DNA from: an uncultured bacterium
GTDB taxonomy: Bacteria > Desulfobacterota > Binatia > HRBIN30 > CADEER01
Direction of reading: 5' to 3'
Length of the DNA stretch: 40,571 bases
Assembly: GCA_902826395.1 (NCBI GenBank)
Contig: CADEER010000027.1
Span: 1 to 40,571 of the forward strand
The first letter of the stretch is position 1. The number at the start of each line of letters is the position of its first letter. The translations under genes were made by a program, and so were the position numbers. Shown one piece after another: positions 32 through 32,584 of this stretch. The notes under the pieces are model-generated. The model saw only the letters and a program-made list of their open reading frames with translations. It was not told the origin of the DNA and did not search any database.

Positions 32-124
32 CGACAGTCTCGGAGGGAGAGGGGATCCTTTGCGGTTCGGGCTCGAGAAACTGTTCGCATCTCCTTTTAC
101 GACAGTCCCGGAGGGAGAGGGGAT
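32..124. repeat. Pair of 25-bp direct repeats at the 3' end of the ABC transporter gene
   Basis: Two nearly identical 25-bp copies (one mismatch) occupy 32-56 and 100-124. Each reads CGACAGTC, then T or C, then CGGAGGGAGAGGGGAT. The second copy overlaps the last codons of the ABC transporter gene, whose TAA is at 97-99, so the repeat supplies the C-terminal residues SPLPPGLS. The first copy lies just beyond the stop. The pattern looks like a small dispersed intergenic repeat that has invaded a gene end. The window edge prevents seeing the rest. Confidence 0.6.
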
Positions 125-1944
125 TTCTGCGCATCTCCCGTCATCGCCATCAGGCGGAACTCTTCGACGTTGCGCGACAGCTCGTCGAAGGTGCCGGTGG
201 CGCGTACCCGGCCGTCGAGGAGGAAGGCGATGCGGTCGAAGCCGCGTACGCTGTTCAGCCGATGCGTGACCGCCACCAGCGTGGCGTCGCGCAGATCGCT
301 GCGCAACGCCGCCAGGACCTCGGCCTCGGTGCGCGGATCGAGCGAGCTGGTGGCCTCGTCCAGTATCAGGACTCTCGGCCGATGATAGAGAGCGCGGGCG
401 ATCCCGACCCGCTGCCGCTCCCCTCCCGAAAGTCGAATGCCGCGATCGCCGACGGTCGTACTCAAACCCGCGGGCAGCGATCGCACCAGATCGCCCAGCC
501 GAGCGCGCTCGAGCGCCACGCGCACTGCGTCCGCGTCGATCTCGGCGTCGGCGATGCCGAAGGCGACGTTGCGCAGCAACGTGTCCTCGACGAGATGCAC
601 CTCTTGCGGGACATAGCCGAGCTGATGCCGCCAAGGCTGTAGACAGCTCGCCAGCGGCCGCCCGTCGATCTCGACCGCACCGCGGTCGGGTTCGAGCAGG
701 CCTACCAACAGGCGGACGATCGAGCTCTTGCCAGAACCAGTCGGACCGACGATCGCCAGCGACTCTCCGCAGGCGATGCTGAGATCTACGTCGGCGAGCA
801 CTGCCTTGGGCTGATCCGGATAGCTCAGCGACACGCCGCGCAGCTCGACGCGATCGCGGAAGCTCAGCGGCTCGGCGCCTCGCCCTTCAGGCAGTGCCTG
901 CCCTTCGATCTCGGCGAGGTCGCGCCGCAATTGATCCACGCCGGGGCGCGCGTGGCGGATGGTGTGCACGTGGTAGAGGATGCGGTTGGCCGAGGGAATG
1001 ACGCGGAAGCCGGCGTAGGCGAACAGGCCGAGCAGCGAGATCGTGCGGGCGCTCGACGCGCCGAGCAGGATGAGCGCGATCGTGACCACCAGCGCACCGC
1101 AGATGAACAGCGTCTCGACGATGATGCGCGGCAGTGTCGAGGAGAAGGTCTCGAGTGCGCTGACCCGCGCGAAGCCGTTCCAGGTCTCGGCAAATTGGCG
1201 AGCAAAGCTCTCGGTCCGACCGAGCACGACGATCTCGTCGACGGCGCTGAGCGCCTGCGTCTGCTGGCGCATCGAAGCGGCGCTCAACGCGTGCGATCTC
1301 TCGCCCAGCCGCGATGAGAGACTGCGCATACCGGCCACAGTGATACCGCCGATCACCAGCAGGGCGGCGGTCGCGGCCAACGTGACGACCGGGGAGGCGA
1401 TGATCAGAACGGCGACGATCGAAGCGAAGATGATCGCCTCGGTGAAGATGTGCAGCATCGCCGATACCACCATCCCGAATACCACCCCGGCCACGCGTTG
1501 CGTCGTGTGGACCATGTCGGCCGAGTTGCGTGCGGCGTGAAAGAGATACGGTGCGCGCAGGTATCCCGTGAGCATCCGCACCGACAGATTGGCGGCCGTG
1601 CGCGCCGAGGCGGTCGCCTGCGCGTATTCCGTCACCGCGAACAGGGCGCTCTTGATCAGGTAGAAGAGAAACACGATCACCACGATCACCAGCGAGAAGC
1701 GCTTCGGCTCGGCGCTGGCGAAGCCGTTCAACAGGTCGCCGAACAGAGGCAGCCCGGCCAGACTCCGCGGGTCGGCCAGCGCCGCGACCAGCACGAAGAT
1801 GCCCATTGCACCGACGACTTCCGTCATGCTGGTCAGTGCGATCAACGGCACGAGCCGCAGCCAACGGCGGCGATCCGCCGGCGTCAGCAGCGAGTAGCAA
1901 TCGCGAACGTAGTCCCACATCCCCGCCGCCTCACTCGTCGGCAT
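97..1944 (-). CDS. ABC exporter, probable lipid-linked oligosaccharide flippase (PglK/MsbA-like)
   Basis: A 615-residue half-transporter with the fused exporter layout: an N-terminal membrane domain with about six hydrophobic segments (residues ~25-320), then a nucleotide-binding domain. Walker A GPTGSGKSS, signature LSGGE, Walker B VLILDEATSSLD and the switch histidine in VTHRL are all present, so it should be an active ATPase that works as a homodimer. It is last in a four-gene overlapping operon with WecA-like, STT3 and ALG1-like genes. By analogy with PglK, I infer that it flips the lipid-linked glycan to the periplasm. Two starts are possible: ATG at 1944 overlaps the previous gene by 14 bp, and ATG at 1920 leaves a 10-bp gap behind a GAGG-like stretch. 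The last codons lie inside a dispersed repeat. A lipid or peptide exporter is the alternative. Confidence 0.85.
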   Translation of the reverse strand: MPTSEAAGMWDYVRDCYSLLTPADRRRWLRLVPLIALTSMTEVVGAMGIFVLVAALADPRSLAGLPLFGDLLNGFASAEPKRFSLVIVVIVFLFYLIKSALFAVTEYAQATASARTAANLSVRMLTGYLRAPYLFHAARNSADMVHTTQRVAGVVFGMVVSAMLHIFTEAIIFASIVAVLIIASPVVTLAATAALLVIGGITVAGMRSLSSRLGERSHALSAASMRQQTQALSAVDEIVVLGRTESFARQFAETWNGFARVSALETFSSTLPRIIVETLFICGALVVTIALILLGASSARTISLLGLFAYAGFRVIPSANRILYHVHTIRHARPGVDQLRRDLAEIEGQALPEGRGAEPLSFRDRVELRGVSLSYPDQPKAVLADVDLSIACGESLAIVGPTGSGKSSIVRLLVGLLEPDRGAVEIDGRPLASCLQPWRHQLGYVPQEVHLVEDTLLRNVAFGIADAEIDADAVRVALERARLGDLVRSLPAGLSTTVGDRGIRLSGGERQRVGIARALYHRPRVLILDEATSSLDPRTEAEVLAALRSDLRDATLVAVTHRLNSVRGFDRIAFLLDGRVRATGTFDELSRNVEEFRLMAMTGDAQKSPLPPGLS

Positions 1945-3202
1945 CGGCGCACCCGAGTAGCGGCGCCGTTCGCTCGCGCCACTCCTGCTGCCAGCTCGGC
2001 AGCTCCGCCGCCCGCAGCCGTTGTCGCATCTCGACCAGCACGCGCGGCGATTCCACCAGCAAGTGTCGCCACGCCGTCGCCAGATCCGCCGCGGTCGTGA
2101 AGAGGAATGCGTTCTCGCGATCGCGCACCACCTCGCGCAGGCAAGGCCCGTAGTCGAGCACGCAAGTCGGCAGCGCGGCGCCCATCATGTCGGCGAGCTT
2201 CATCGGCAGATCGACGCCGGACGACGAGCGGTGGAAGCACAGCCCGAGATCCGCGGCGGCGAGCAGACGCGCGTAGTCGCCCTCCGCCAGCCACACGGTG
2301 CGAAAGACGACGCCCGGCACGCCGGCGGCGGCAAAGCGCCGTTCGTACTCGGCGCGCAACGGACCGCGGCCCGACACGACGACGATCAGCTTCGGTCGGT
2401 TCGTCTCTGCACCGGCGCGCGCCCAGATCTGCAGCGCATCCTGCAGGAGCGAGAAGTCCTCGTCGGCGCTCCAGCTCGTCGCACTGACCAGCAGCGCTGC
2501 ACGCCCGTCGAGCAGTTCCTCGCCCGCCGTCGCCGGCAGATCGAGGATAGGCATAATGCCGCGCCTGAGGCGGTCGCGATCGGCCGCTGCGACGTGCATG
2601 AAGGTGGCGGCGGGCCGGTCGCGGAAGACCACCGCATTGATGCCGCAGAGCTCGGCGAGTCTCTCCCGCATCGCCTCCGAGACGCAGAGATGATCGCTGG
2701 CGCGCCGCGCCATCGCTCTCTCGAGCAAGCCGGCGACTCTGACCGCGGCGCCGTCGCGATCGCGGCGCAGGCCGAGCATGGTCCAGCCGAAGTTGTGCCA
2801 GTCGATGATCAAGGGCACGCGGTGGCGACGGCAGAGACTCAGCACGATCGGCAGAATGTGCACCGCCGGAGGGTTCTGCACCAGCACCGCTTCGGGTGCC
2901 GACACGGTCAATGCCGCCGCGACGTCGCGCGAGTCGCGCAGGAGTCTGAACACACCAGCGATCACACCGCGGCGCCCTTCTCCCGCCGACGCGCCGAGAG
3001 CGTGAACACGGATCGCATCGTCGTTTGGCCAATCGTCGAGCGGCGTTTCGACATACGCCAGCACGTCGACGGCGGCGCCCGCCGCGGCGAGACACTCCGC
3101 ATGCCGCTTCATGCGAGGGCTGCGCGCCAGATCGCCGAGCACGATGACGGCGAAGCGCCGCCGCGTCGTGTCGCCGCAGCGCGCGACGGCTGCCGCACTC
3201 AC
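1931..3202 (-). CDS. ALG1-like glycosyltransferase (GT33-type, beta-mannosyltransferase-like)
   Basis: A predicted 423-residue GT-B glycosyltransferase. Motifs match eukaryotic ALG1, which adds the first mannose to chitobiosyl-PP-dolichol: GDLARSPRM at 23-31, QNPP at 109-112, DWHNFGW at 134-140, and near the C-terminus SSGVDLPMKLADMMG followed by an LREVVRDRENAFLF acceptor/donor region. The open frame extends upstream to 3589, but that part is an Arg-rich shadow of the STT3 gene. The GTG at 3202 is chosen because it overlaps the STT3 stop as GTGA and starts just before the conserved GDxxRSPRM region. I infer that it extends the polyprenyl-PP-linked sugar made by the WecA-like enzyme on the cytoplasmic face. 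The actual donor (GDP-mannose in ALG1) cannot be read from the sequence. Confidence 0.85.
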   Translation of the reverse strand: MSAAAVARCGDTTRRRFAVIVLGDLARSPRMKRHAECLAAAGAAVDVLAYVETPLDDWPNDDAIRVHALGASAGEGRRGVIAGVFRLLRDSRDVAAALTVSAPEAVLVQNPPAVHILPIVLSLCRRHRVPLIIDWHNFGWTMLGLRRDRDGAAVRVAGLLERAMARRASDHLCVSEAMRERLAELCGINAVVFRDRPAATFMHVAAADRDRLRRGIMPILDLPATAGEELLDGRAALLVSATSWSADEDFSLLQDALQIWARAGAETNRPKLIVVVSGRGPLRAEYERRFAAAGVPGVVFRTVWLAEGDYARLLAAADLGLCFHRSSSGVDLPMKLADMMGAALPTCVLDYGPCLREVVRDRENAFLFTTAADLATAWRHLLVESPRVLVEMRQRLRAAELPSWQQEWRERTAPLLGCADADE

Positions 3203-5874
3203 CAGAGGATTCTCCAGGTGATCACTTCGCCGGCGGGCCCACTCCGCCGATCGAAGGGCTCGAATCGATCGAGGTGCTCGTCGCCGAGAAACAACAGGCG
3301 GGTCGCGCTGGAGCGCAGCACCTCGACGTCGCCGACCAGGACGCGCCGCTTCTCGAGATCGACGAGAACGCTTTCGATTCCGTCCGCCGATCCCTCGATC
3401 ACGCGCATGCGGTCCGGCGCCGGCACGACGATCCACCGCGGCCTCACTTCGCGTTCGCCGCCGTCGCGCCCGCGCACGATCAATCGCGCAGCGGCCGCGT
3501 CCGCGATCGGCGCGGACACGGCGACCAGAGTCTCTCCACTCGGCTGCGGCAGCTCGATAGGGCAGCGCAAGATGCTGTCGCCGTCGCACGGCTTCCAGCG
3601 CAGCGTCGCATAGCGCGGCGCCCGCGGCCGCGGCGTCGCGGCCGCGGCGATTGCGGCCGCGGCTTTCTCCTCGTCGATTCCGAAGTACGCGGCGAGAAGT
3701 GCCGAGCGATTAGGGTCGCCGGCGGCGGACGCGGCGAGAAAGCTCCAACTTCCGAACTGCCGCCAGCCGATCGACTTGCCGAAGTCGGCGGGCAGGACCA
3801 GGTAAGCAGGTGCCGGTTCGCAGTGCGTCGCCTGCAGCACCGCCGTGCTCTGGTCGCGCGACAGGCCAAGCGCCTCCAGTCGCTTCTCCGCCGCCGGCCG
3901 CGGCAGCGACGCCATCTCTACGATCACGGCCTGCGCGACCCCGTCGGAGACGCCGGCGTCGAGCAAGCGCCCAAACGCGCCAAGCCGGCCCTCGGGCTCG
4001 GGCAGCGCATCGGACCCGCAATTGAGCATTCGCAACAGGCCCAGCATTTCGGTTTCGCTGTCGGCGCTGAGCGCGCGCGCGAACCAGTAGTGCACATGAG
4101 TACCCAGCGTGCCGCCGTCGGAGAGCACGCGTCGCTCGGCGGTGTGCTTCACGAAGTATCCGTAATCCCACCAGGTGTTGACGATCGACTCCGGCGGCGT
4201 CTCGTCGCGCAGCTTGGTGAGCGCACCATGCCAGTTGTCGTTCATGATCGGCATGTAGGTGCGCGCTACCCTTTCGCCTCGCGCCACCGGCGGATAGAGC
4301 GCGGCCAACAGGGCGAACAGAATCGCCGCGGACAGCGGTGGCGAAGCCCAGGATTGGCGCTCGACCCATTGATACAGCCGCCCGACCGCGACCGCGCAAA
4401 GAACACCGAGCGGCTGTGCCAGGATGATGAGAAAGCGCGTGCCGCGGAACGACAGCAGCAGGCCGGCCATGAACCAGAAGATGATCATCGCCCCCGCCCC
4501 CTGGTCCTCGAGCGGACTGTCCCGATCGGCGAGGAAGGCACCGACGGCGACCGCCAGCGGCAGGATCAGCAACAGTGCCAGAGTCCACGGGTCGATGCTC
4601 TGGTAGCTGAGAAGATAGCGATACAGCAGGTTACCCCCGATGAGGATCGCGAAGTGCCACGGTTGCCAGTTCGAGCGCGGCAGCATGAGCAGGATCAGAC
4701 CCAGCCAACCGACGAAGAAGTAGACCGGGCCCGACATCGACTGCGCCACCGCGGCCAGATTGGGCTTGCGCAACTCGCCGACCGTCTCGAAGACACTCGG
4801 CCAGTGCATGGAGATCTGGTCGCCGACATCGCTCGGACTGCCCTCGATGGCGCGCGTCACCTGCGAGACGAGGGTCGCGGCGCCGGACAACGGGCTGGAC
4901 TCGGCGCCGACCGCCAGGGTGGCGAGCGTAGCGGCCACCAGATAGCCGCCGAGCAGCAAAGCCGCGGTCTCGAACGCGCCCCTGTCGCTCTCCCCGCCGG
5001 GGCGGACACCGTGCAACAGGCGGCGCACGCTCCAGAGCAACACGTACGCGGCGAAGCCGAGCACGATGATGCCGGAGGTCAGGAACCAGCCGCGCCAGAT
5101 CGCCGCGTGCAGCCCGGTGACGGCGGCGGCGACGAGGACGTAGAAGGCGCGTCGCGAGCGCTTCTCGGCGTAGATCGCCTCCACCGCCGCCCAGATCTCG
5201 AACAGCGGCAGGACGATGTTCCAGATGTCGTTGTCGGCGGCGAACGTGCGGTAGAGCACGGCCGAGTTGACGCTCACCAGAATCGCACACGTCGCACCGC
5301 CGATGGCGCCGCCAAAGCGTCGGCCGAGCCAGAACGCCGGCAGCATGCCGATCAGCGCAACCGCGAACGACATGTAGAAAGCCGATAGGCTCAGCGGCAC
5401 ATCGGGAGAGAACACCGTGAGGAGGCGATGCGTGAACGCCAGCGCCTGCACATGGAACGACGAAGCGTAGCGACTGATCGTGCCCACCGGGGCCAACGTG
5501 AAGTCGTCGCGACAGGCGCCGTCGACGATGGAATCGCAGGGCGTGCCGCTGCGCAGCACGTTGCGGGCGGCGCGCAGCCACACGAAGCTGTCGAAGCCTC
5601 CGCTGTAGGGAACGCGATCACCGCTCGGCGTCTCGAACGAGAACGCCGCCTGTTGGCGTTCGACCTCGTCCCGCAGACGATCGTTGAAAGCCGCGCGGTT
5701 GGCGGCGATCCAGCGCTCGACCTCCGCCGCGCCGCCGCCGACCTCGGCCGCGATCTGCGCGCGCACCGCAGCCGCTGCGCTGCCCCGCACTCCGTCGATC
5801 TCGAGCGGCAGCAGCCGCACCCATCCGACGAGGACGAGGACCGCTGCGAGCAGGCCGAGCGGTACTAACTTCAT
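3199..5874 (-). CDS. STT3/PglB-family oligosaccharyltransferase
   Basis: A protein of 891 residues with an N-terminal membrane anchor, about a dozen further hydrophobic segments, and a soluble periplasmic C-terminal domain. OST landmarks are visible in order: an acidic residue in the first loop (GGFDSF, D95), the metal-binding DND at 214-216, a TxxE motif (TVGE, E367) in the fifth external loop, RGTRF at 477-481 (lipid-phosphate arginine region), and the acceptor-sequon-binding WWDYG at 568-572 followed by DGGTLG. A later stretch (AYLVLPADFGKS, then WSFLAAS) resembles the PglB region after WWDYG. These point to en bloc transfer of a glycan to asparagine in N-X-S/T. The start overlaps the WecA-like stop (ATGA). 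It is longer than Campylobacter PglB (about 710) and closer to archaeal AglB length. Between the membrane anchor and the first motif there is an extra charged region (residues 30-85). Confidence 0.93.
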   Translation of the reverse strand: MKLVPLGLLAAVLVLVGWVRLLPLEIDGVRGSAAAAVRAQIAAEVGGGAAEVERWIAANRAAFNDRLRDEVERQQAAFSFETPSGDRVPYSGGFDSFVWLRAARNVLRSGTPCDSIVDGACRDDFTLAPVGTISRYASSFHVQALAFTHRLLTVFSPDVPLSLSAFYMSFAVALIGMLPAFWLGRRFGGAIGGATCAILVSVNSAVLYRTFAADNDIWNIVLPLFEIWAAVEAIYAEKRSRRAFYVLVAAAVTGLHAAIWRGWFLTSGIIVLGFAAYVLLWSVRRLLHGVRPGGESDRGAFETAALLLGGYLVAATLATLAVGAESSPLSGAATLVSQVTRAIEGSPSDVGDQISMHWPSVFETVGELRKPNLAAVAQSMSGPVYFFVGWLGLILLMLPRSNWQPWHFAILIGGNLLYRYLLSYQSIDPWTLALLLILPLAVAVGAFLADRDSPLEDQGAGAMIIFWFMAGLLLSFRGTRFLIILAQPLGVLCAVAVGRLYQWVERQSWASPPLSAAILFALLAALYPPVARGERVARTYMPIMNDNWHGALTKLRDETPPESIVNTWWDYGYFVKHTAERRVLSDGGTLGTHVHYWFARALSADSETEMLGLLRMLNCGSDALPEPEGRLGAFGRLLDAGVSDGVAQAVIVEMASLPRPAAEKRLEALGLSRDQSTAVLQATHCEPAPAYLVLPADFGKSIGWRQFGSWSFLAASAAGDPNRSALLAAYFGIDEEKAAAAIAAAATPRPRAPRYATLRWKPCDGDSILRCPIELPQPSGETLVAVSAPIADAAAARLIVRGRDGGEREVRPRWIVVPAPDRMRVIEGSADGIESVLVDLEKRRVLVGDVEVLRSSATRLLFLGDEHLDRFEPFDRRSGPAGEVITWRILW

Positions 5875-6974
5875 CCGTCCCCTTCCGCCGCCGCTTCCAC
5901 GACAGCGGGCGGCCGGCTGCGGCGATCCAGGTGACGCGTCGCCAGGAACGCGCTGGCCGCCGCCAGCCCCACCAGCAGCGACTTGAACGGACCGCGCGCC
6001 AGGACGGTGAGAAAAGCGAACGCCGAGAATGCGGCGCAGCAGCCGTACAGAAACAGCACGGCGCCGCGCGCCGTGAAGCCGGCGCGCAGCAGGCGGTGGT
6101 GGATGTGGTCGCGATCGGCGCGCACGATCGCCGCGACCCCCGAGACCAACCAGCGCCGCACGACGGCGTAGGACGCATCAGCAATCGGCAAGCCCAGCGT
6201 CAGCAGCGGCACCGCGACCACGACCGCCGCGGCGCCCTTTTGTAGAGACTGCACGGACAGGACGGCAATCGTGAAGCCGAGGAACAGACTCCCGGAGTCG
6301 CCGAGAAAGATCGAAGCGGGGGGGAAGTTGAAGGCGAGGAATCCGACGAGGCAACCGGCCAGGGTCGCCCACAGCAGCAGCGCATCGGTGCGCTGCTCGA
6401 CGGCGGCGACGCCGAGCAGGGTCAGCGCGGCAATCAGCGCAACACCGGCGGCGAGACCGTCGAGACCGTCGATCAAATTGAACGAATTGGTAATGACGAC
6501 GATCCACAGCAGCGTGGCGATCGGCGCGAGCATCCCGAGCTCGATGTGTCCGCCGGTGAGCGGATTGGTGATGGCGCCGAAGCCGTAGCCGCCGGCCATG
6601 ACGAGGCCGGCGACGCACGACTGCACGACGACCTTGGCGAGCGGCCCGATCCCAATCACATCGTCGACGATGCCCAGCGCGAGCATCGACAACGCCGCCG
6701 GGACGATCCACGGCAAGGCGCCGGCGTGCTCCGCGAGCGGCCCCAGCGCGCCGGGCGATATCCTCGCGACGATGGCCAGCGCCATCGTGAAGGAGGCGGC
6801 GACCGCAATACCGCCCAACATCGGCACCGCACGGCTGTCACCGTGATGGTCGCCGTGCTTGTCGAGCACGCCCAGACGCCGCGCCGACCAAGCCACCAGC
6901 GGCGTCGTCGACAGCGCCAGGAAACAGCCGATCAGCGCCAGGCCAAAGGCGGCAACGCCAACCGACTCTGCCAA
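5871..6974 (-). CDS. WecA/TagO-like polyprenyl-phosphate sugar-1-phosphate transferase
   Basis: A 367-residue multi-pass membrane protein of the glycosyltransferase 4 (MraY/WecA) family. Catalytic signatures are present: the VDD pair at 103-105, [12 protein letters not shown] around 166-177, [13 protein letters not shown] near 225, and the cytoplasmic HIHHRLL near 300. The family transfers HexNAc-1-phosphate from a UDP-sugar to undecaprenyl phosphate; WecA uses UDP-GlcNAc. As first gene of the four-gene glycosylation operon it probably starts the lipid-linked glycan. A GlcNAc start would suit an ALG1-like second enzyme. The start codon at 6974 is TTG, 18 bp after the thiolase stop. The stop overlaps the STT3 start as ATGA. 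It could also feed cell-wall or O-antigen polymers. Confidence 0.9.
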
Positions 6975-6992: not shown

Positions 6993-8216
6993 TCAGCGCA
7001 ACCGCTCGACGATCGTCGCGATCCCCATGCCCCCTCCGATGCACAGCGTGGCGAGACCGGTCGAGGCATCGCGGCGCTCGAGCTCGTCGAGCAGAGTCCC
7101 GATCAGCATCGCGCCGGTCGCGCCGAGGGGATGTCCGAGCGCGATCGCGCCGCCGTTCACGTTGACCTTGTCGGGCGGAATGTCGAGATCGCGCATCACC
7201 TTCAGCGGCACGACGGCAAAGGCTTCGTTGATCTCGAAGAGGTCGATGTCGCCGACGGTCATGCCAGCCTTGGCGAGGGCGCGTTCGCTGGCGGGGCCCG
7301 GCGCCGTCAGCATGATCACGGGCTCGGCGCCGCGCGTAGCGGTGGCCAGGATCCTGGCGCGCGGCTTCACGTCGTGCTCGCGCACGTAGCGCTCCGACGC
7401 GAGCGCTACGGCGGCGGCGCCGTCGACGATGCCGGAGGAATTGCCCGCGGTGTGCACGTGATTGAGCTCTACTCCCGGATAGCGGAGGTGCACGCGTTCG
7501 CGCAGCGTGCCCTTGCCGACCGGCGGCTGGAAGTCCATCGCCGGCGCGAACGACGCCTTCAATCCCGCCAACCCTTCGAGGCTCGTCTCGGGGCGCGGCA
7601 GCTCGTCTCTCTCGAGCAACACGTTGCCGTCGAGATCGACGACCGGCACGACGCTCTTGAAGCGCCCTTCCGCGACGGCGCGCTGCGTGCGCTGCTGGCT
7701 TTCCCACGCGAAGCGATCGCACTCCTCGCGCGAAATTCCCTCCAGCGTGGCGATCAGGTCGGCGGAGATTCCCTGCGGCACGATCGGGTGCAGCTCGATC
7801 AGATGTGGATTGGCGCCGTCGATGCCACCCGGATCGGAGCCCATCGGGATACGCGACATCGACTCGACTCCGCAGCCGACGACCAGATCCTGCATGGCGC
7901 TGGCGACTCCCATCGCCGCGAAGTTGACCGCTTGCAGACCGGAGCCGCAGAAGCGGTTGAGCGAGACCCCCGTCACCTCGTTGGGCCAACCGGCCGCCAG
8001 CGTCGCGAGGCGCCCGATGCAGGCGCTCTGCTCGCCGTGCTGCTGAACGCAACCCGCGACGACGTCCTCGACGTCATTCGGATCGAGGCCGCAGCGCAGC
8101 AATCCGTTCAGCGCCTGACCGAGCAGCTCCTGCGGATGGACGCCGGCCAGCGCTCCGGAGGCCTTGCCCTTGCCGCGCGGCGTGCGAACCGCGTCGAGAA
8201 TGTATGCGACTGCCAT
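6993..8216 (-). CDS. Thiolase family protein (acetyl-CoA acyltransferase)
   Basis: A 407-residue thiolase. It has the nucleophilic cysteine in NRFCGSG (C90), the [15 protein letters not shown] histidine block, and the second catalytic cysteine in the C-terminal TLCIGGGMG motif. It should cleave 3-ketoacyl-CoA with CoA or run the reverse condensation in fatty-acid or steroid/aromatic catabolism. An in-frame codon lies 30 bp further upstream, but ATG at 8216 is preceded by GGAGGAG at good spacing and begins the conserved [15 protein letters not shown], so it is preferred. It lies 18 bp upstream of the glycosylation genes on the same strand. That may mean shared transcription without shared function. 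Confidence 0.93.
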
Positions 8217-8289
8217 GGCTCCTCCAGCGGACTGAGTGCGGCACACCTAACCGCGTTGCCGGGAGAACCACAAGACGGCGCCAAGGAGG

Positions 8290-29956: not shown

Positions 29957-29963
29957 GATGTAC

Positions 29964-30554
29964 ATGCACCGAAGGCTCATCGGATTGGCCGCCCTTGCCC
30001 TGTTCGCGGTGCCGTTTGTCGCGAGCGCGGCCGAGTACAAGGTCGACGCGGCGCACACCAACGTCACGTTCAAGGTCCGCCACCTGTTCACCAACGTCTC
30101 CGGCCGCTTCGACGACTTCGAGGGCACCGTCGTCTTCGATCCGGACAACTTTGCCACCGCCACCGCCCAGGGCACGATCAAGGCGGCCAGTATCAACACC
30201 AACAACGAGAAGCGCGATGCCCATCTGAAGAACGCCGACTTCTTCGACGTCGAGAAGTATCCGACCATCACCTTCAAGAGCACTGAGATCACCGACGTCG
30301 ACAAGACGAAGATGACCGGCAAACTGCACGGCAACCTGACCATGCACGGCGTCGAGAAACCGGTCGTGCTCGATGTCGCCTACCTCGGCACCGCCAAAGA
30401 CCCCTGGGGCAACACGCGCGGCGGGTTCAGCGCCAAGACGACGATCAACCGCAAGGATTTCGGTATCAATTGGAACCAATCTCTCGACAGCGGCGGTCTT
30501 CTGATCGGGGAAGAGGTCGAGATCGAGATCAACGTCGAAGGCGTCGTGCAGTAA
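29964..30554 (+). CDS. YceI-family periplasmic lipid-binding protein
   Basis: 196 residues. The signal peptide is MHRRLIGLAALALFAVPFVASA, with cleavage likely at SAA/EYK. The mature part is the YceI lipocalin-like barrel: YKVDAAHTNVTFKVRHL, VSGRFDDFEGTV, DVEKYPTITFKST, GNLTMHGVEKPV, and a terminal GLLIGEEVEIEINVE. Family members bind polyisoprenoid lipids. It carries four N-X-S/T sequons (NVT, NVS, NLT, NQS). It lies 92 bp upstream of the bufferin precursor on the same strand and could share its promoter. Confidence 0.93.
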   Translation: MHRRLIGLAALALFAVPFVASAAEYKVDAAHTNVTFKVRHLFTNVSGRFDDFEGTVVFDPDNFATATAQGTIKAASINTNNEKRDAHLKNADFFDVEKYPTITFKSTEITDVDKTKMTGKLHGNLTMHGVEKPVVLDVAYLGTAKDPWGNTRGGFSAKTTINRKDFGINWNQSLDSGGLLIGEEVEIEINVEGVVQ

Positions 30555-30646
30555 CGCCCGGCGCGGCGAGCTCCGATCGACGGACTCGCCGCCGACAAAC
30601 AAGCCGCGTCGGTGTACGCGGCACAACGAGCGAAGGAGGGAGTCAC

Positions 30647-30922
30647 ATGAACACCAAGCGCATCCTGATGGCCTCGGCGGTCGCAGGCCTGCTTTCCACC
30701 GGCGCGGCGGTCGCCGCCGAGCACGGCGGCGGCGCCGGCGACAAGGTCCCCTGCTACGGCGTCAACAAGTGCAAGGGCACCGGTGCCTGCGGCGGCAAAC
30801 ACGACGACGGGACGGCGTATTCGTGCGCCGGCAACAACGGCTGCAAGGGCAAGGGATTCCTGATGATCGACAAGGACACCTGCCTGAAGATCGAAGGCGG
30901 CCGCCTGACGGCGGCCAAGTAG
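30647..30922 (+). CDS. bufA: Bufferin-type Cys-rich RiPP precursor (BufA2-like)
   Basis: 91 residues. A signal peptide (MNTKRILMASAVAGLLSTGAAVAA) replaces the usual cytoplasmic leader. The core has six cysteines (PCYGVNKCKGTGACGGK, YSCAGNNGCKGKG, DTCLKIEGG), closely following the known bufferin pattern. Family knowledge: bufferins are exported copper-binding peptides in which MNIO enzymes turn cysteines into thiooxazole heterocycles. AAGGAGG precedes ATG 30647 at 7 bases. It is followed after 17 bp by the MNIO gene, as in characterised operons. Which cysteines are modified cannot be seen here. Confidence 0.88.
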   Translation: MNTKRILMASAVAGLLSTGAAVAAEHGGGAGDKVPCYGVNKCKGTGACGGKHDDGTAYSCAGNNGCKGKGFLMIDKDTCLKIEGGRLTAAK

Positions 30923-30939
30923 AGCGCGACACGATCGAA

Positions 30940-31842
30940 ATGGACTCGCGCGCGCGCAGACCGGAATCGCCGTGGCCGGCTCTCGGCTACGGCGCCGGCC
31001 TGCGCGCGCAGCACTACACCGAAATCTTCTCTCAGCCGTCGCGCATCGATTGGTTCGAGGCGATCACCGAGAATCACTTCGACAGCGGCGGCCGCCCCCT
31101 GCACGTGTTGGAGCGCCTGCGCCGCGATCACGCCGTCGCTCTGCACGGAGTGGCGCTGTCGATCGGCTCCGCCGATCCACTCGACGAATCGTATCTCGCG
31201 AAGTTGCAGGCTCTCGCCGAGCGCATCGAGCCGGCGCTGATCACCGATCACCTGTGCTGGTGCGGCGTCGACGGCACCGTGCTGCACGATCTCCTGCCGC
31301 TGCCCTACACCGAAGAGGCGCTCGCACACGTCGTCGACAAGGTGCGCCGGGTTCAGGATCGGCTGCGGCGCCAGATCCTGCTCGAGAACCCGTCCACCTA
31401 CATCGCCTTCGCTCACTCGACGATGCCGGAGTGGACGTTCATGGCCGAGCTCGCCGCCGCCGCCGACTGCGGCATCCTGCTCGACGTCAACAATATCTAC
31501 GTCTCGGCCCGCAACCTGGATTTCGACCCGTACGCGTACGTTGACGGAATTCCCGTCGACCGCGTCGCCCAGATTCACCTCGCCGGCTTCACCGACATGG
31601 GTACTTATCTGTTCGACACCCACAGCGCGCCGGTCAGCGACGACGTATGGAGCTTGTACGCATACGCATGCGAACGATTCGGCGAGGTATCCACCCTGGT
31701 CGAGTGGGATGCCGACATCCCGCCACTGGAACGGCTGGTTGCCGAGGTCGACCGCGCTCGCGCCATCGGCGCGCCGCGTGGCGGCGATGATGAGAAAGCA
31801 GATGCCGGAGCTGTGCGCCCTGCAGCGACAATTGGCGGCTGA
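30940..31842 (+). CDS. bufB: MNIO-family (DUF692) RiPP-modifying iron oxidase, BufB-like
   Basis: 300 residues of the DUF692 TIM-barrel family (multinuclear non-heme iron oxidase). Metal-ligand regions are recognisable: RAQHYTE (H25), ITENHF near 42-47, LHGVALSIG (H69), TDHLCWCG (H104), ILLENPSTY (E149), LDVNNIYVS (D182/N184), QIHLAGF (H213), DTHSAPV (H228) and EWDADIP (E255). The expected role is oxidation of precursor cysteines together with the DUF2063 partner. No clear ribosome-binding site precedes ATG 30940, so it may be translated by coupling to bufA. Its 3' end overlaps bufC by 56 bp. Confidence 0.93.
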   Translation: MDSRARRPESPWPALGYGAGLRAQHYTEIFSQPSRIDWFEAITENHFDSGGRPLHVLERLRRDHAVALHGVALSIGSADPLDESYLAKLQALAERIEPALITDHLCWCGVDGTVLHDLLPLPYTEEALAHVVDKVRRVQDRLRRQILLENPSTYIAFAHSTMPEWTFMAELAAAADCGILLDVNNIYVSARNLDFDPYAYVDGIPVDRVAQIHLAGFTDMGTYLFDTHSAPVSDDVWSLYAYACERFGEVSTLVEWDADIPPLERLVAEVDRARAIGAPRGGDDEKADAGAVRPAATIGG

Positions 31843-32584
31843 GATCCTCGCCGCCGTCGCGCCGGCTGCCTCCGGCTTGCGCGAGCACCTTCGCCTGCCG
31901 GAAGGCGTCGACGTCGAAACCCGGCTCGCCGTCTACCGCAACGGCTATCCGGCTCGCCTGCTCGATGCGATGCGCGACGTCTTCCCGGCGATCGCCAACA
32001 TCTGCGGTGCGCCTTCGTTCGCCGATCTCGCCGGTCGCTACCTACAGTCGCGCGACTTGTCGCGCACGGCACTCAACGAAATCGGCAACGAGTTTCCCGA
32101 CTACGTCGCCGGCGATCCATTGCGCGACGAGCTCCCGTTCCTGCCCGATCTCGCGAACCTCGAGTGGAAGGTTCTGCGATCCTTCCACGCCTGCGATCGG
32201 CCGCCGGTCGACGCGGCGCGCTTCGCCGCTTGGGACCTCGACGACTGGGATCGCGCCGTGTTGTCGTTTCAGCCCTCGGTCGCCGTCGTGCGATCGAGCT
32301 GGCCGCTGTGCGATCTATGGACGTCGCGCGACACCCCGCGCGATGAGATCGACATCGACCTCATCGGCCGCCCGCAGATCGTGCTCGTGCATCGCCACGG
32401 CGACGACGTCGATTGCACCGTACTGGAGCCGCCGGCCGCGCTGCTGCTCGGGACGCTGCTCGACGGCGCCACTCTCGGCCAGGCGATGGAAGCGCTGGCC
32501 ACGTGCGCCGACGGTGTCGATCCAGCAGCGATCTTCGCAGGCTGGCTGGGCGACGGCTTGATCGCAAGCGTCGATGTGCGCTGA
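31787..32584 (+). CDS. bufC: DUF2063 putative DNA-binding/partner protein of the MNIO, BufC-like
   Basis: 265 residues. The N-terminal domain (1-100) has the DUF2063 pattern (LCALQRQLAAEIL, TRLAVYRNGYPARLLDAMRDVFPAI, GRYLQSRDLSRTALNEIGNEFPDYV). The C-terminal part continues as LEWKVLRSFHACD and ends in a region typical of BufC. In the studied systems this protein helps the MNIO act on the precursor and is needed for its activity. ATG 31787 (or 31790) overlaps the bufB 3' end. It ends 12 bp from the convergent thioesterase stop. No DoxX-like gene, sometimes found with bufferins, is present. Confidence 0.9.
   Translation: MMRKQMPELCALQRQLAAEILAAVAPAASGLREHLRLPEGVDVETRLAVYRNGYPARLLDAMRDVFPAIANICGAPSFADLAGRYLQSRDLSRTALNEIGNEFPDYVAGDPLRDELPFLPDLANLEWKVLRSFHACDRPPVDAARFAAWDLDDWDRAVLSFQPSVAVVRSSWPLCDLWTSRDTPRDEIDIDLIGRPQIVLVHRHGDDVDCTVLEPPAALLLGTLLDGATLGQAMEALATCADGVDPAAIFAGWLGDGLIASVDVR

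Follow-up and report, generated by a model that had tools for sequence, protein, structure and literature searches.

ALG1 (CAZy family GT33) transfers a beta-1,4-linked mannose onto GlcNAc2-PP-lipid. Lombard (2016) could not determine the closest prokaryotic relatives of Alg1 and regarded the enzyme as possibly a eukaryotic innovation (PMC4973528). Among bacteria, N-linked glycosylation that proceeds through a lipid carrier has been regarded as confined to the delta- and epsilonproteobacteria (PMC4973528), and none of the papers covered by our literature search joined Binatota with N-glycosylation and oligosaccharyltransferase. We analyzed a stretch of DNA (the window) that comprises bases 1-40571 of contig C27 (43790 bases) from a genome of 6.09 Mb, very likely that of a member of the Binatota. 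This window contains an operon that probably encodes the central steps of N-linked protein glycosylation and whose STT3 was apparently acquired from DPANN archaea, as judged from the protein families, gene order, predicted fold, motifs, co-occurrence and phylogeny. The archaeal-type STT3 and an ALG1-like enzyme are what make the operon worth following.

Layout and conservation of the operon

Four open reading frames occupy positions 97-6974 of the minus strand and read toward the contig end (Table 1). Their junctions are, in order, an ATGA overlap of 4 bases, a GTGA overlap of 4 bases and a 14-base overlap. The coordinates and junctions given in an earlier note on this DNA were therefore correct, and Pfam placed each of the four proteins above the cut-off in the family that the note had named. 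Only 96 bases separate the ABC exporter gene from the contig end, which coincides with window base 1, indicating that the 3' end of the operon was cut by the assembly. A CCTCTCCC...GACTGTC-type repeat lies at or near several contig ends (window 32-117 and the ends of C214 and C141) and probably broke the assembly. Where the ABC gene and the contig end, there are two copies of a CTCCCTCCG[AG]GACTGTCG repeat, which likely caused the break.

Table 1. Features of the operon and of the adjoining contig end (window coordinates)
Feature	Position	Strand	Remarks
WecA-like polyprenyl-phosphate HexNAc-1-phosphate transferase (predicted initiator)	5871..6974	-	TTG start; PF00953
STT3/AglB-type oligosaccharyltransferase, 891 aa, Woesearchaeota-like	3199..5874	-	PF02516 + PF21436
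ALG1-like (GT33-like) GT-B glycosyltransferase	1931..3202	-	GTG start; PF13579, PF13439
Half-size ABC exporter, candidate lipid-linked oligosaccharide flippase (PglK/MsbA-like)	97..1944	-	PF00005, PF00664
Two copies of the CTCCCTCCG[AG]GACTGTCG repeat, end of the ABC gene and contig end	32..117		comparable words also close to two other contig ends in this genome

A thiolase gene (6993-8246) runs in the same direction and ends 18 bases upstream of the operon. In the sister genomes no thiolase was called at this position, and the upstream neighbour there encodes a PF10118 hydrolase. We rejected the idea that archaeal DNA contaminates the window, because it shares the flanking genes for the PF10118 metal-dependent hydrolase and for a 161-aa MA.FHDF.ATTI protein with the sister Binatota loci and because STT3 is present in three other genomes of the genus. 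The window also contains a RiPP-type cluster (29958-32584), in which an MbnB/TglH/ChrH enzyme (PF05114, 358 bits; 30940-31842) comes after a 91-aa protein whose N terminus looks signal-like (30647-30922) and before a 265-aa protein.

STT3 was found in all four searched genomes of the genus and, with a patchy distribution over five families, in 9 of 58 relatives. A homologue of the ABC exporter scoring more than 340 bits was present in exactly these 9 of the 58 genomes, the next best score being 255 bits (Fisher p = 9e-11, ignoring shared ancestry), and the ALG1-like gene was present in 8 of the 9 STT3 genomes and in one of the 49 others, namely G017 (Fisher p = 4e-8, likewise ignoring shared ancestry). 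Shared ancestry makes both p-values too small, but in several families the genes were gained and lost in concert. Co-conservation of the four genes in relatives was thus borne out among the 58 genomes by the joint occurrence of STT3, ABC and ALG1-like genes. Together with the intact catalytic motifs described below, it supports the original reading of the locus as an N-glycosylation operon made up of a WecA-like initiator, STT3, an ALG1-like glycosyltransferase and an ABC flippase.

The order WecA-STT3-glycosyltransferase-ABC recurs in the sister species G001 at 45-57% identity, indicating that the arrangement is not due to chance. In G003 the first three genes follow this order until the contig breaks off, and a different contig bears the ABC gene and the one after it. 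G006 has the same order, interrupted between STT3 and the glycosyltransferase by a GT28 gene on the opposite strand. The STT3 pair and the glycosyltransferase-ABC pair of G002 lie on separate contigs, showing that linkage is not needed. No ALG1-like gene was seen in the STT3 genome G013, which is 85% complete, and G017 (L151, G017:C43:245000-264900) lacks STT3 while keeping the second glycosyltransferase gene along with ALG1-like, ALG2-like and ABC genes; the genes for glycan assembly are therefore not tied to STT3 alone. The G017 cluster adjoins genes for an O-antigen-ligase-family protein and for a protein in which a PglC-type initiator is fused to a GT28 domain, and perhaps this genome makes the same glycan for a different final ligase. 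Outside the Binatota, STT3 occurs together with GT28, ALG1-like and second glycosyltransferase genes at a locus (L115, 3650-11683) of Telmatospirillum sp. J64-1, an alphaproteobacterium whose record does not bear a MAG label. A search of 79 relatives found STT3 in none.

Initiator, exporter and glycosyltransferases

The WecA-like protein scored 133.5 bits against PF00953, above the cut-off. Its best NCBIfam model was ECA_wecA (TIGR02380), at 105.7 bits and below the cut-off of 326; for this reason we call the protein WecA-like. It contains one 14-residue motif (letters not given) and HIHH, and its gene adjoins STT3 with 49-62% identity in four relatives. ABC half-transporters as a group handle many different substrates. 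The exporter of the operon scored above the Pfam cut-offs (PF00005, 109 bits; PF00664, 43.2 bits), reached 249 bits with the MsbA model, which is under the model cut-off, and reached 239.9 bits with the PglK equivalog NF050066, short of the cut-off of 1000. Its context makes it a candidate flippase. Because the cut-offs of the WecA and PglK models were missed, the substrate assignments of both proteins are loose.

The glycosyltransferase encoded between STT3 and the exporter matched PF13579 at 54.7 bits and also matched PF13439. The alignment of its family (A2) shows the motifs LGDxGRSPRM, VQNPPA, DWHN, DRPA, TSWTADEDF, GxGPLR and SSSGxDLPMK. For comparison we used a provisional sequence of yeast ALG1. 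The A2 profile scored 369 bits over nearly the full length of this provisional sequence, as against 34 bits or less for the other glycosyltransferases compared, and identity to the same provisional sequence was 30% over 415 aa for the window protein and 37% over 410 aa for the protein of another locus (L044). A search for published ALG1 motif letters with which to compare the provisional sequence found none, and the papers on ALG1-CDG variants gave too few positions. At the level of sequence, the full-length resemblance of this glycosyltransferase to eukaryotic ALG1 is a strong lead. Searches for ALG1-like genes gave no more than weak partial matches across 98 DPANN genomes and none in the viral contigs scanned; a scan for the pattern DLPMK..DMFG and a sequence search of the PDB for an ALG1-like structure also gave none. 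It is possible, and we propose it tentatively, that the Binatota clusters hold the closest known prokaryotic relatives of ALG1, in some cases with ALG2-like and GT28 genes as well, beside an archaeal-type STT3. In that case the clusters would be the bacterial equivalent of the cytosolic part of N-glycan synthesis in eukaryotes, and a step whose origin has been described as unknown might have come from them or been passed to them.

At its end, the ABC gene of G001 and G003 shares bases with a second glycosyltransferase gene (P0005), the fifth gene of the operon in these genomes. Homologues scoring at least 200 bits were present in all nine STT3 genomes and in 2 of the 49 others. In the window genome, this gene lies among unrelated genes at C228:1893-3032. 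Because the operon is cut at the contig end and the second glycosyltransferase is encoded elsewhere, neither four genes nor one elongating enzyme accounts for the full system, and the description of the operon as "minimal" with "one elongating enzyme" was an undercount. A GT28 (MurG-like) gene is present in many other Binatota clusters and an ALG2-like gene in some of them, the ALG2 resemblance being judged by eye. A second GT28 gene and an ALG2-like gene were looked for in the genus of the window and were absent, which suggests that its glycan is probably short. We infer a glycan of about three sugars for this genus, and probably a longer one for relatives with the extra GT28 or ALG2-like genes.

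The predicted oligosaccharyltransferase and its probable origin

STT3 scored 70.6 bits against PF02516 (cut-off, 24.5) and 32.3 bits against PF21436 (cut-off, 23). In PglB and STT3, the WWD and DND motifs and the TVGE glutamate bind the sequon and the metal. Both DND (214-216) and WWDYG (568-572) are intact, as the earlier note had claimed, and no catalytic motif is lost. In an alignment of 13 homologues, D214, D216, E367, R480 and W568-W569 were invariant and D95 was nearly so; D95 and DND supply the acidic metal motifs expected in the external loops. E367 lies in TVGE and was compared, by sequence, with the catalytic glutamate of EL5 (TIXE/SVSE); D570 is kept in the operon copies. The AlphaFold model had a pLDDT of 86.4, and its top 19 structural matches were all STT3/PglB/AglB oligosaccharyltransferases (Z 24-30, 503-638 residues aligned). 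The model matched yeast and human STT3, C. lari PglB and A. fulgidus AglB end to end, in keeping with the multi-pass GT-C fold and the periplasmic C-terminal domain of this family. Oligosaccharyltransferases ranked above PMT and DPY19 relatives in the VIA-align list, which is a re-ranking, so that a fold missing from it is not thereby excluded.

An alignment-based scan of the genome collection for STT3 succeeded where a single-sequence scan gave no match. A second STT3 paralogue is encoded in the same genome (L032; G000:C214:4382-6391, plus strand) beside polysaccharide-type genes and has WWS instead of WWD, and a similar paralogue in G002 (L030) has WWP. At L044 (7107-12751), two tandem STT3 copies lie upstream of ALG1-like, ALG2-like and ABC genes, in a chromosomal setting that is conserved and was also found in L040.

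The nearest named relatives of STT3 came from "Candidatus Binatia" and from loosely labelled "Deltaproteobacteria" MAGs, which makes it very likely that the host belongs to the Binatota. The earlier assignment to PglB was not upheld: the protein scored 26 bits against the PglB equivalog NF050801 (cut-off, 1300) and grouped with Woesearchaeota STT3s, remote from the bacterial PglBs. With a profile of the Binatota STT3s, Woesearchaeota proteins scored 211-862 bits (the lowest being fragments) and Desulfobacterota-type PglBs of the same phylum 27-86 bits. In a careful tree, the Binatota STT3s formed one clade (100/100), nested in a larger clade that also contained three Woesearchaeota sequences (100/100, 98/91), and this larger clade itself lay inside DPANN diversity. 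Forcing the archaeal STT3s into one clade cost 60 log units (p-AU 5.9e-8), and archaeal monophyly was thus rejected. The archaeal part of the tree consisted of DPANN sequences only, and the direction of transfer rests on rooting with PglB. No homologues of the WecA, ALG1-like or ABC genes were found within about 10 kb of the nearest archaeal STT3 loci. On the simplest reading, STT3 appears to have moved from a DPANN (Woesearchaeota-like) archaeon into a bacterial lipid-linked glycan pathway.

Inheritance of an ordinary PglB system within Desulfobacterota-type bacteria would agree with the presence of STT3-family genes in 52 of 247 genomes of the phylum and with the N-glycosylation reported for delta- and epsilonproteobacteria (PMC4973528). 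However, every tree split the Binatota STT3s from the PglBs with full support, and this explanation, rejected on the trees, the archaeal-monophyly test and the gap between PglB and Woesearchaeota profile scores, is highly improbable. The archaeal nesting would be an artefact if the three nearest "Woesearchaeota" contigs (L042, L046 and L050) were mis-binned bacterial DNA or if long branches misled the tree. These loci have a G+C content of 56-67%, which is high relative to most Woesearchaeota loci; letter composition also varies between the rows of the tree, from which other archaeal AglBs are absent. Nevertheless, the STT3 neighbours at all three loci are small SMR-type proteins and a GT2 gene, as in low-G+C Woesearchaeota, and the genomes carry archaeal S6e. 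The three independent MAGs concur, and the scores of more remote Woesearchaeota likewise lie well above those of PglB. We consider such an artefact improbable, and transfer from a DPANN archaeon remains the preferred reading.

The acceptor is a separate matter, since STT3 could be a ligase that hands the lipid-linked oligosaccharide to an acceptor outside N-X-S/T sequons, for instance a lipid, a polymer of the cell surface or side-chain hydroxyls. Acceptor use may have diversified in the family, given that WWD is replaced by WWP or WWS in two paralogues. In G017 the ALG1-like, ABC and second glycosyltransferase genes stand beside an O-antigen-ligase-family protein without STT3. The operon copies, on the other hand, retain WWD, DND and the TVGE glutamate, and the top fold matches are all oligosaccharyltransferases acting on asparagine. 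A different acceptor is therefore unlikely, and we retain N-linked protein glycosylation as the predicted function.

Predicted pathway and comparison with known systems

From the protein families, the WecA-like enzyme would transfer HexNAc-1-phosphate to undecaprenyl phosphate, and the ALG1-like enzyme and the second glycosyltransferase (C228) would then extend the chain on the cytoplasmic face of the membrane. Once the ABC exporter had flipped the resulting lipid-linked oligosaccharide, STT3 would attach it, in the periplasm, to asparagine residues of exported proteins. A DPANN-derived (Woesearchaeota-like) STT3 would thus now be working with a bacterial lipid carrier and flippase. A bacterial lineage seemingly runs N-glycosylation with a DPANN transferase, so that an exchange of the key enzyme between domains can be tested directly. 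The ALG1-like gene is relevant to the origin of Alg1, and the new oligosaccharyltransferases are of interest to glycoengineering, since they may take sugars or sequons other than those of PglB.

The predicted pathway resembles the Campylobacter pgl system (PglB, PglK and PglC) in its use of a lipid carrier, in the single-subunit STT3-family transferase that acts last and in the ABC exporter as candidate flippase. It differs in that the initiator is of the WecA type rather than the PglC type, STT3 is of the DPANN type rather than PglB (26 bits versus a cut-off of 1300), the flippase falls under the PglK cut-off (240 versus 1000), and the glycosyltransferases are an ALG1-like enzyme and another of the GT-B type. 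With archaeal AglB (the STT3 of DPANN/Woesearchaeota), the homology is full-length, including the C-terminal domain, and the two are sister groups in the trees; in the archaeal loci the genes next to STT3 encode SMR-type proteins and a GT2 enzyme, whereas the Binatota loci have WecA, ALG1-like and ABC genes. In eukaryotes, the lipid-linked oligosaccharide is assembled on the cytosolic side by ALG7, ALG13/14, ALG1, ALG2 and ALG11. WecA corresponds to ALG7, an ALG1-like enzyme occurs in both systems, and other Binatota also have GT28 (MurG-like) and ALG2-like genes. In contrast to the eukaryotic assembly, the Binatota pathway has an ABC flippase and presumably an undecaprenyl rather than a dolichol carrier, and the genus of the window has neither the extra GT28 gene nor the ALG2-like gene.
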